Shown piece by piece: positions 3,427 to 6,438 of a stretch of 43,970 bases of DNA. Numbering within the stretch: position 1 is the first letter of the stretch; the number at the start of each line of letters is the position of its first letter. The stretch spans positions 1 to 43,970 of the forward strand of contig CACBDX010000006.1 of the NCBI GenBank assembly GCA_902538155.1. The letters run 5' to 3'. The notes under the pieces were generated by a model, which saw only the letters and a list, made by a program, of their open reading frames with translations, searched no databases and was not told the origin of the DNA. This DNA comes from an uncultured Alphaproteobacteria bacterium (GTDB taxonomy: Bacteria; Pseudomonadota; Alphaproteobacteria; HIMB59; GCA-002718135). The position numbers and the translations under genes were made by a program.

Positions 3427-3511
3427 TGGTACGAGTAGAGGGAATCGAAGCCACACCACCGAAGTGACCGGATTTTGAATCCATCAAACAAATCAGCTCC
3501 ACTAAACTCCT
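3427..3511 (-). pseudogene. Decayed tRNA-Leu(CAA) copy
   Basis: An 85-base stretch that aligns without gaps to the intact tRNA-Leu at 4511-4595. The part corresponding to the tRNA 3' half (3427-3482: CCA, acceptor 3' strand, T arm, variable arm, anticodon loop) matches at 54 of 56 positions. The 5' half (3483-3511) matches at only about half the positions. The acceptor 5' strand, D arm and 5' anticodon strand no longer pair properly, and one of the two changes in the conserved half breaks the T stem. It should not give a working tRNA. It may be a decayed duplicate or an att-like scar left by an integration event at the tRNA 3' end. Confidence 0.8.
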
Positions 3512-3581
3512 AGTTTATTTTCTAAGTAATACTTGGTTTTTATGTCTAAGTCTACGAGTTTGTAGTACAAAAATAAGATTA

Positions 3582-3609
3582 CAAGTCAACCATAGGGCAA
3601 CTTTTTTAA
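3582..3609 (+). repeat. Short direct repeat, copy 1
   Basis: A 28-base block, starting CAAGTCAACCATAGGGCAAC and running into a T tract, that recurs at 4452-4480 with about four substitutions and one extra T. The two copies sit inside the interval bounded by the decayed and intact tRNA-Leu copies, on either side of the lipoprotein gene. The remainder of 3512-3721 is AT-rich spacer in which I see no gene. Confidence 0.55.
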
Positions 3610-3721
3610 CTCACAGGGAATCTACAGGGAAACTATAATTATAGTTTAGATTTTCTCTTAAGTAATAGTATATTATATTTTGATAAGTATGAAATTGCAC
3701 TTTTTTACAATAATCTTAAAA

Positions 3722-4396
3722 ATGAAAAATAAATTATTAATTTTAATAAGTTTAACTTTATTTCTTTCTGGCTGTAAAATTGACTTTACTGGTGATCTAT
3801 TCACATCAGACTTAATTGATCTAGCAAACACAGCTGAAAATAAACAATTCAATTTACCAATGGAAATAGCATATCAAGTCGCTGATTGCGAAAGTGATGA
3901 AACTAACAGAATGCTATCAACTTATTTTATTGAATTTAAAAAAACTGGCTGCACTTTAGGAGAAGATTTTATGAGTTATACTACTGCTCAAGTTAGTGTA
4001 CCTGTTGTAAATGACTATGATGTTTTCAATAATTCTAGTGACAGCCTTATCGGATTTGTTTCTTATCTGTCCGAAGATAAAACACTTGTTTATGTCGATG
4101 CAGTAACTAATTCTGAGTTATTTGAAAGTCTTAAAAACTATGTCTATAATGAAACTTTTCAAGAACTTTCTTTAGCTGATAGTAATTTAATTATTAGATT
4201 AAATAATGATATGAATAGTGCAACAATAGAAGTTCCTCCTAGTTTTGTGAATAATGAACCGATCGTGTTTTCAACTGAATACAATATGGAAAGAAGAGAG
4301 TTACTCATTATTCAATCTTCTGATGTTAACGCTTCTTTTCTTGAAAATAATTTGTGGACCCCTTTATTTGTATTAAAAAATAATATTCAAAATTAA
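3722..4396 (+). CDS. Predicted lipoprotein, unknown function
   Basis: A 224-residue protein with a classical type II signal: MKNKLLILISLTLFL then the lipobox LSGC, so Cys19 would be lipidated. I chose the ATG at 3722 because it puts the basic residues directly before the hydrophobic stretch; the upstream TTG at 3680 and ATG at 3689 would add residues ahead of the signal. The mature part is acidic and beta-rich with no domain that I recognise. It contains three further cysteines in its first third. The gene lies alone between the decayed and intact tRNA-Leu copies, so it may be cargo of an integrated element. Function unknown. Confidence 0.75.
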   Translation: MKNKLLILISLTLFLSGCKIDFTGDLFTSDLIDLANTAENKQFNLPMEIAYQVADCESDETNRMLSTYFIEFKKTGCTLGEDFMSYTTAQVSVPVVNDYDVFNNSSDSLIGFVSYLSEDKTLVYVDAVTNSELFESLKNYVYNETFQELSLADSNLIIRLNNDMNSATIEVPPSFVNNEPIVFSTEYNMERRELLIIQSSDVNASFLENNLWTPLFVLKNNIQN

Positions 4397-4451
4397 CTAA
4401 AAAGGTTGGTAGTATATCTTACTTCCTATTCACTTAATAATAAAGTAATTT

Positions 4452-4480
4452 CAAGGCAACCATGAGTCAACTTTTTTTAA
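4452..4480 (+). repeat. Short direct repeat, copy 2
   Basis: The partner of the block at 3582-3609; it starts CAAGGCAACCATGAGTCAAC and runs into a T tract. It lies 31 bases from the encoded 3' end of tRNA-Leu, between the lipoprotein and the tRNA. No inverted-repeat or stem structure is obvious in either copy. Confidence 0.5.
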
Positions 4481-4510
4481 ATCTGAAGTTTGATAGAGGT
4501 CAATTTTTGT

Positions 4511-4595
4511 TGGTAGGAGTAGAGGGAATCGAACCCACACCACCGAAGTGACCGGATTTTGAATCCGGCGCGTCTACCAGTTCCGCCATACTCCC
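4511..4595 (-). tRNA. tRNA-Leu (anticodon CAA)
   Basis: Read on the minus strand, the gene has the acceptor strand GGGAGTA pairing with TACTCCT (one G-U), a class II D arm with GGTAGACGC, and the anticodon stem CCGGA/TCCGG around loop TTCAAAA. It continues with a long variable arm TCACTTCGGTGG, the T arm GGGTTCGATTCCC, discriminator A and an encoded CCA at 4511-4513. The CAA anticodon reads UUG. The long variable arm and the discriminator A are the normal leucine identity features. It is the only functional RNA gene that I can support in this window. Confidence 0.96.
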
Positions 4596-5423: not shown

Positions 5424-5600
5424 TTATACACAAGAATTTGCGTATTCTTTTATTTTTTCAAGCATTGAATAAACACCATTTCTTCTTCTTGGGGTTAAAA
5501 GGTTATCAAACTGTAAAATATTTAACATTTTAAATCAGATTCTTTAATTTCAGAAGGACTTCTATCACCATAAATATCACATAGAATTGTTACCATACCT
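5424..5600 (-). pseudogene. Truncated, frameshifted sufE copy
   Basis: Minus-strand translation gives GMVTILCDIYGDRSPSEIKE, corresponding to GMVTILCDIYGNREPKEIKD of the intact SufE encoded at 6439-6855. It then meets a stop, and after a frameshift continues NILQFDNLLTPRRRNGVYSM and LEKIKEYAN to a natural stop. Only the C-terminal 40% or so is left; the active-site cysteine part is missing and the 5601-5697 bases show no convincing remainder. The copy is in the same orientation as intact sufE, with the methyltransferase gene exactly between the two, so the arrangement looks like a duplication scar. Confidence 0.85.
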
Positions 5601-5697
5601 CAAGTATTACTTTGTTTTTTTAAGTTAAATCTATGAGCTTGTTTGAAGATATTGAATTCGAAAAGCGTCATAAAAACGTCGCAATTATTTTGTTCTC

Positions 5698-6426
5698 TTA
5701 TTCATAAATTCTTAATGCTTTCTTAGAGTTATTAAAAATCAAATTGAAGTATTTTTCAAAAATACCATTTTCGGATTGATTGACAAATATAATTTTACTT
5801 TTATTTTTTTTTATATGAGACATATTTTGCGAGAAAAATTTTCTAACATAAATATCACTAAAAGGATTAAATAAAAAAATTAAATAACTCCTATTATCTT
5901 CAAATTTAAAATCTAATGCATCTTGATTAATAAATTTTATATTATTTTTTGGAAAGTTTTTTTTATTTCTGAAAGACTTTAAATTTTTGTTCGCTATAGA
6001 TATCATTTTATCTGAAATATCAACACCAACAAATTTAGATATTCTTGGATAATATTTTGAAGCAAAAAAACATGGACGACCCATACCACAACCAATATCT
6101 AAAAAAAAATCATATGTAATTTTGTCATCTTTCAGTAAATAATCTAATGATAACTTTAAATGTTTTAATGATGTTGCCTGATATCTTGTAGAATGTTTCT
6201 TTTGTTCTCCTTTTATATCTAAATCCTCAACTTCAATTATCTTTGTTGTTGATATACCCCAATATGAATCATAAATTAGGTTTGATAAATATTTAATTAA
6301 ATCTAATATTAAAAAGTGATATAATCCCTCTATTAATCCATTTGTTTTTATTAAAAAATATAATCTACCTACAAAGTTTTTTATTTTAAAAAAAATTAAT
6401 ATTTTTTTTAAATTTTCTTTCATCAA
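5698..6426 (-). CDS. Class I SAM-dependent methyltransferase
   Basis: A 242-residue protein with SAM-binding motif I as FFLDIGCGMGRPCFFAS near residues 108-124, motif II as KFVGVDISDKMI, and a later FINQDALDFKF acidic turn. The first 75 residues are unlike typical free methyltransferases: basic, hydrophobic and Phe/Ile/Tyr-rich, perhaps lying on the membrane. Substrate unknown; methyltransferases of this shape often act on lipids, glycans or other polymers. Composition is even more Lys/Asn/Phe-rich than the neighbours, and the gene is bracketed by a broken and an intact sufE, which suggests recent insertion. Confidence 0.75.
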   Translation of the reverse strand: MMKENLKKILIFFKIKNFVGRLYFLIKTNGLIEGLYHFLILDLIKYLSNLIYDSYWGISTTKIIEVEDLDIKGEQKKHSTRYQATSLKHLKLSLDYLLKDDKITYDFFLDIGCGMGRPCFFASKYYPRISKFVGVDISDKMISIANKNLKSFRNKKNFPKNNIKFINQDALDFKFEDNRSYLIFLFNPFSDIYVRKFFSQNMSHIKKNKSKIIFVNQSENGIFEKYFNLIFNNSKKALRIYE

Positions 6427-6438
6427 TTAAAAATTAAT

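Follow-up and report, generated by a model that had tools for sequence, protein, structure and literature searches.

A one-gene element integrated at tRNA-Leu(CAA) in an uncultured HIMB59 alphaproteobacterium, and relatives with common ends and different cargo

Why do an intact tRNA-Leu gene and a partial second copy of it bracket a lone lipoprotein gene in an uncultured alphaproteobacterium of the HIMB59 lineage? The locus lies in a stretch of 43,970 nucleotides (hereafter the window), which is one contig (C6) of a 1.07-Mb assembly in 61 contigs that is 60.85% complete. An initial annotation, made from the letters alone, had noticed direct repeats 1.08 kb apart with a near-identical 3' half, and this holds: positions 3427-3482 and 4511-4566 match at 54 of 56 bp, with a start-to-start offset of 1,084 bp. 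The 56-bp repeat is the 3' part of tRNA-Leu(CAA), called once by ARAGORN and Rfam and lying intact on the minus strand at 4511-4595; the left copy gives no tRNA match even at an E-value of 10. A second direct repeat (3578-3607 and 4448-4477; 30 nt, 83% identity), absent from the initial list, lies just within both ends of the intervening segment and is central to reading it as an element. The main ORF between the repeats spans 3722-4396 when read from its ATG (the listed frame begins at TTG 3680). The parts recognized in the locus are given below, with genomes denoted by G-numbers and that of the window as G000.

3427-4510, no strand: integrated element of 1,084 bp, whose removal leaves sequence collinear with the G012 empty site; a crossover is possible anywhere in the repeat, and the element may be phased up to 56 bp rightward
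3427-3482, minus strand: displaced 3' half of tRNA-Leu, left att core, 54/56 identical to 4511-4566
3483-3511, minus strand: tRNA-like 5' half, borne by the element and not a product of decay in place, 24-26/29 to G029, G030a and G077 and 15/29 to the intact tRNA
3512-3577, no strand: conserved left flank resembling the region upstream of tRNA-Leu, from the left-end alignment and tRNA 5' flanks
3585-3601, plus strand: left arm-type pair GTCAACCATAGGGCAAC with 11-bp spacing, from the lag-11 signal in 56 cargo-side flanks
3614-3631, plus strand: second left pair CAGGGAATCTACAGGGAA, resembling the left pair of G002
3722-4396, plus strand: cargo gene for a DUF7424 lipoprotein-like protein of 224 aa (PF24199, E 2e-20)
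4455-4471, plus strand: right arm-type pair GGCAACCATGAGTCAAC
4472-4510, no strand: conserved right end reaching the tRNA, common to seven aligned elements including the integrase-bearing one of G002
4511-4595, minus strand: intact tRNA-Leu(CAA), with the right att core in its 3' half (ARAGORN, Rfam)
4552-4568, minus strand: anticodon stem-loop CCGGA-TTTTGAA-TCCGG, proposed core site with a 7-bp overlap, from the overlap of the relatives' 3'-type and 5'-type fragments at tRNA letters 42-50

The gene order in G012 is VTT-like (93% identical to the VTT-like gene of the window; its Pfam score lies below the cut-off), MFS, tRNA-Leu and flavin reductase. With the 1,084 bp taken out, the window locus is 2,764 bp long and aligns end to end with 2,763 bp of G012 at 92.4% identity. 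This collinear empty site shows the MFS and flavin reductase genes to be context and the lipoprotein gene to be inserted; the segment 3427-4510 is an integrated element. Hence, the earlier suggestion of an integration-site duplication with the lipoprotein as inserted cargo is borne out by G012, and also by other elements that share the same ends and carry different cargo.

These other elements emerge from a search of 101 genomes of the genus with the 70-nt right end of G029, which gives long matches in G029, G030 (two), G002, G036, G077 and G000 and a 51-nt match in G037, the others being short with E-values above 1e-6. Over the whole span between arm pair and tRNA, close alignment is seen for seven right ends (G000, G002, G029, G030a, G030b, G077 and G036); they come from six genomes, G030 carrying two elements in tandem. 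Six of the left ends also align, that of G002 being different. Among the seven, the element of G002 (9.5 kb) encodes a tyrosine integrase, with none seen in the other six, one of which (G036) has an unassembled middle. Compared over 29 nt, the 5' half of the relic in the window agrees with the intact tRNA at 15 positions without gaps, and with the corresponding part of G077 at 26, G030a at 25, G029 at 24 and G036 at 20, with lower scores for G030b (10), G002 (9) and G056 (8). As this 5' half is common to other elements, it is inherited with the element in the G077/G030a/G029 group, and the alignments indicate that several left-end variants exist. The initial annotation had taken the 5' half as heavily decayed: that it is odd is real, whereas decay in place is at variance with its match to three other elements at 24-26 of 29 positions.

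The wider setting was defined by 38 intervals with the VTT-like and flavin reductase genes on one contig and less than 20 kb apart, which with the window make 39 loci. All 39 contain a full-length tRNA-Leu, and the interval between the two genes ranges from 164 bp to 17.4 kb. The gap between the tRNA and the flavin reductase gene is empty in seven (G065, G073, G021, G012, G041, G076 and G087). The initial annotation had named conservation of the lipoprotein and relic at this place in all relatives as the outcome that would refute it; instead, these seven loci have nothing there, and DUF7424 was found in 10 of 151 genomes, a count that includes the genome of the window. A second tRNA-Leu copy or long fragment is present in 16 of the 39 loci, a count that leaves out 14-16-nt matches in G074 and G084: 3'-half fragments in five (G000, G056, G002, G030 twice and G029), 5'-half fragments in nine (G046, G047, G053, G027, G013, G039, G024, G038 and G009) and two full-length copies in two (G010 and G048). 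The remaining 16 loci hold cargo with no detected second copy of the tRNA. The 17 elements of the 16 second-copy loci span 905-3,008 bp, except that of G002 at 9,546 bp. An integrase is encoded at one of the 39 loci; its absence elsewhere rests on PF00589 searches in the window's genome, G001-G054 and 36 genomes of another family, and for 15 loci (G056 and above) on a search for relatives of the G002 integrase only.

The G002 element, in locus L104 (G002:C7:7734-19849), carries a 332-aa tyrosine integrase next to the tRNA (PF00589, E 2.6e-24; phrog_1, E 3.4e-57) and a primase-like protein with a DUF5906 match, besides another 13 ORFs that are 55 aa or longer; no conjugation or transfer gene was recognized among the 9 of its 15 ORFs that were scanned, and it resembles a satellite or tycheposon. 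Some match to its integrase is found in 27 of 102 genomes of the genus, with full-length relatives in G049 (85%) and G035 (77%) and the next at 56%. Fragments of the tRNA-Leu 5' part lie beside the integrase in both G049 and G035, and by eye the end of the G049 element is common to integrase-less elements of G047, G013, G039 and G038. A tRNA or tmRNA gene lies within the stretch examined at 11 of 20 loci with integrase matches (Leu 2, Arg 1, Gly 6, Gln 1 and tmRNA 1, with the tmRNA gene at a distance of about 900 bp); two of the nine without one are G049 and G035 with their tRNA-Leu fragments. Traces of the enzyme also persist: its first codons or leader are discernible by eye at the right end in G030a and G038, and G057 retains an N-terminal piece (100 aa at 71%) beside a tRNA-Leu fragment. 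These pieces point to deletion derivatives. A leader motif finds no such trace at the window's right end, the motif having missed G030a and G038 too. The initial remark that no integrase is visible is true of the window and of its genome as assembled (60.85% complete), in which neither the PF00589 profile nor the search for G002-integrase relatives gave a match; at this completeness, a helper integrase resident in the genome is possible. Viral contigs contained no relative of the lipoprotein or the integrase and no exact right-end or tRNA-core pattern, a negative that bears weakly on a phage-satellite reading.

Separately, integrase pieces that comprise the N-terminal part alone (about 57-126 aa, near 50% identity) occur beside tRNA-Gly in G029 and G075 (L237, L240), and further such pieces are seen in G042, G087, G065, G077, G030 and G153. 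A tyrosine recombinase frame of 354-384 aa is present in 37 of 55 genomes of the genus, with frames of 329 and 286 aa in a sister family; it is perhaps a single Xer-like recombinase.

Inside both ends of the window element lie the paired heptamers spaced 11 bp apart (3585-3601 and 4455-4471). Across the relatives, self-similarity at lags 7-19 peaks at lag 11, with z of 9.2 for the 56 left flanks on the cargo side, taken at a distance of 55-115 nt from the tRNA, and 10.2 in 23 right ends, against 1.4 in the empty flanks, of which there are only seven; the test shuffled letters singly and the sequences are related, so that z overstates significance, and G007, with no tRNA in its stretch, was left out of the flank set. 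Lesser peaks occur at lag 19 (z 6.2) and lag 18 (z 3.1) nearer the tRNA (0-60) and at lag 8 (z 2.4) in the right ends. Under a loose criterion that was chosen once the data were known, a heptamer pair is present in 35 of the 56 cargo flanks and in none of the seven empty ones; the 21 cargo flanks failing it include those of G002, where the left pair sits further out, G030 and G056, all with displaced tRNA halves. The heptamers vary by element (GGGCAAC, GGTCAAC, GTGTC-like and GGGAATC-like, by eye), and the pairs differ between element groups and are also found beside integrase genes. By analogy with the arm sites of lambda-type integrases, the paired heptamers would be arm sites of a tyrosine integrase. 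The fragments themselves bear on the point of crossover: on the plus strand, 3'-type fragments reach tRNA letter 50 or beyond and 5'-type fragments begin at letter 42 or before, and letters 42-50 fall in CCGGA-TTTTGAA-TCCGG (42-58), the anticodon stem with its 7-nt loop. Tyrosine integrases use an inverted repeat around seven bases, and the fragment ends suggest that crossover takes place in the anticodon loop of tRNA-Leu with a 7-bp overlap. In the window, the relic bears two substitutions (54/56) and the right pair departs from its relatives, with GAGTCAAC in place of GGGCAAC; this copy may no longer move.

The cargo product matches DUF7424 and is related to the phage-protein family phrog_3832 (E 1e-8), although tblastn against phage records gave no match at E 0.01. 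Cys18, which follows a hydrophobic leader, is invariant in an alignment of 10 DUF7424 sequences including that of the window; AlphaFold2 run on four lipoprotein sequences gave a mean pLDDT of 35.9. Among the genome contigs searched, the three nearest relatives of the lipoprotein come from uncultured Alphaproteobacteria bacterium isolates with the name prefixes AG-426, AG-414 and AG-447 (one as a MAG), which we take to be single cells from the surface ocean. Composition, which the initial annotation had proposed as a check, does not mark the gene as foreign: its GC content is 28.1%, against 28.5% for MFS, 27.6% for flavin reductase, 24.1% for the VTT-like gene and 32.0% for the window. A promoter scan gave 9 sigma-70-like sites against 5.8 expected, and the same promoter/terminator scan found no terminator. 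The idea that DUF7424 permanently belongs to this place was considered and rejected: in G064, G050 and G055, the tRNA-Leu is followed by a rhodanese gene without DUF7424. In G012, a distant DUF7424 gene (44%) sits at another location, about 4.4 kb away from tmRNA; relatives at 43-47% are found at distances of 1.7-4.4 kb from tmRNA in four members of the genus (L019-L022), and one at 48% lies near tRNA-Arg in a member of another family (L018). No mention of DUF7424 was found in the accessible portions of the literature searched.

Cargo also moves between lineages. The cargo of G030b and G077 is 90.7% identical over 744 bp and that of G039 and G077 94.5% over 804 bp, while the VTT-like genes of these hosts stand at 96% (G030), 87% (G039) and 55% (G077) to that of the window; such near-alike cargo in divergent hosts indicates transfer. 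For DUF7424 itself, dS from the window to G019, G001 and G066 is 0.66-0.84, and that of four neighboring genes 0.93-2.35, which is near saturation. Between G019 and G001, the lipoprotein has a dS of 0.11 and its neighbors 1.11-1.48; between G019 and G066 it has 0.43 vs 1.08-1.38; and between G001 and G066, where the VTT-like and DsbB genes are closer, 0.47 vs 0.20-0.67. In this mixed pattern, the lipoprotein distances disagree with those of the neighbors in more than one way. In all three genomes the lipoprotein gene lies on the 5' side of the sole detected tRNA-Leu, and G019 and G001 show what may be worn arm pairs; inspection by eye gave none in G066.

We consider it quite probable that the window holds a small integrative element that is non-autonomous, carries a single cargo gene and took its integrase from elsewhere. 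Site-specific recombination would have put it into the anticodon-loop region of tRNA-Leu(CAA), restoring the tRNA on one side and leaving the displaced 3' half on the other, and the element would keep only the cis needs of a tyrosine integrase (a core and paired arm sites at both ends) along with its cargo gene. The enzyme would most likely be supplied in trans by an element of the G002 type, or else its gene could have been lost from an ancestor of the window copy. The common ends together with the cargo transfer make a helper in trans likeliest, with decay in place accompanied by homologous exchange as the main rival. G002 itself is not the direct parent, since its left end differs from that of G000 (9/29 in the 5' half). 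Neither an excised circle nor an attP junction was observed. That the element is instead a dead remnant, once autonomous and now fixed and unmoved after an internal deletion removed its integrase, is rather doubtful. The integrase vestiges in G030a, G038 and G057 speak for it, as does the failure to find a helper in the window's 61%-complete genome; against it, integrase-less elements with the same ends carry near-alike cargo in divergent hosts, and the lack of a leader-motif trace at the right end of the window element says little.

Slightly less probable still is that cargo is swapped by homologous recombination between the conserved flanks and tRNA copies with no integrase involved, which would account for cargo changing while ends stay conserved and for the same cargo lying between different arm types (G039/G077 and G009/G048). 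Yet junctions inside the tRNA, half-genes of both kinds and empty sites call for at least one site-specific event, and homologous exchange may act in addition to site-specific insertion. As for the duplication of a whole tRNA gene that decayed unevenly with the lipoprotein gene caught between the copies, suggested in the initial annotation by the gapless half match of the 5' part, the two full-length copies in G010 and G048 also speak for it; but other elements share with that of the window its odd 5' half, its arm pairs and its right end, and the empty site of G012 is collinear, making this highly improbable. We tentatively entertain, without thinking it likely, a cassette economy on one anticodon loop, in which single genes would pass between these bacteria of small genome size inside integrase-less elements, and the heptamers of each element would form an arm code naming a rare helper integrase acting in trans; if true, such a system would resemble an integron in function while not being an integron.

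Like tRNA-gene islands of the tyrosine integrase type, the window element has a restored tRNA at one end and a displaced fragment at the other; the integrase gene inside such islands is lacking here, the main ORF being DUF7424. The nearest known kinds are the CIMEs and the integrase-less ssrA islands of Dehalococcoides. CIMEs (cis-mobilizable elements), in the accessible portion of their description, retain attL and attR and lack the genes for integration and transfer (PMC5704250). The window element likewise has att sites and neither kind of gene, and its relatives include tandem elements as in G030; it differs in being 1.08 kb long with one gene, and with regard to an origin from conjugative or mobilizable elements, its G002 relative has integrase and primase-like genes and no transfer gene in the 9/15 ORFs scanned. 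A CIME moves in cis along with an active element next to it; at this locus of the window no integrase is present. The ssrA islands, as far as the available part of their account goes, are site-specific at an RNA gene with several in tandem, 15 of them without an integration module (PMC3146451), features shared with the present group; they use a serine recombinase and many carry rdhA, whereas the window group has a tyrosine integrase and tRNA-Leu. The window element is far smaller than either kind and has one gene. Integron cassettes are also single mobile genes with a recombination site, inserted by an enzyme encoded elsewhere, but the window element is bounded by two tRNA att sites with no integrase at the locus. 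Tycheposons, from the part of the source available, are tRNA-bounded elements of 4-200 kb with a tyrosine recombinase and cargo (PMC10872708); the window element shares the tRNA target, and G002 resembles this kind, but the former has 1,084 bp and no recombinase inside. The HIMB59 islands in the accessible part of PMC10734472 have no tRNA at their borders and are a different kind. We found no description of this tRNA-Leu locus in the available portions of PMC10872708, PMC3146451, PMC10734472, PMC5704250, PMC10308909 and PMC12416821.

Little is known of the routes by which flexible genes come into small streamlined genomes, and here one tRNA gene collects inserts of one to a few genes with an integrase at one of 39 loci. 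Island finders that require an integrase will miss such elements. As the 11-bp pairs vary from one element group to another and also occur beside integrase genes, the matching of integrase to cargo is directly testable.

Two minor observations concern further inserts. In G050 (L204, 585-3515), a stretch of 2.9 kb contains tRNA-Leu four times as copy or fragment: three are of 85, 44 and 62 nt, and one is a full copy at 91%. Between them lie genes for a rhodanese, a 277-aa protein without a Pfam match and a bactofilin, an array that we read as stacked inserts. The window has a second insert at 5431-6438: a worn fragment of the 3' part of sufE (about 5436-5599, 73-75% at the amino acid level) is followed by a part 82-87% like the tRNA-Leu 5' flanks of G050, G053, G081 and G054, which holds an 11-bp pair (AGCGTC/AACGTC, 5664-5680), then by a methyltransferase gene and the full sufE. 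In six of six relatives examined, the flavin reductase and sufE genes are adjacent.
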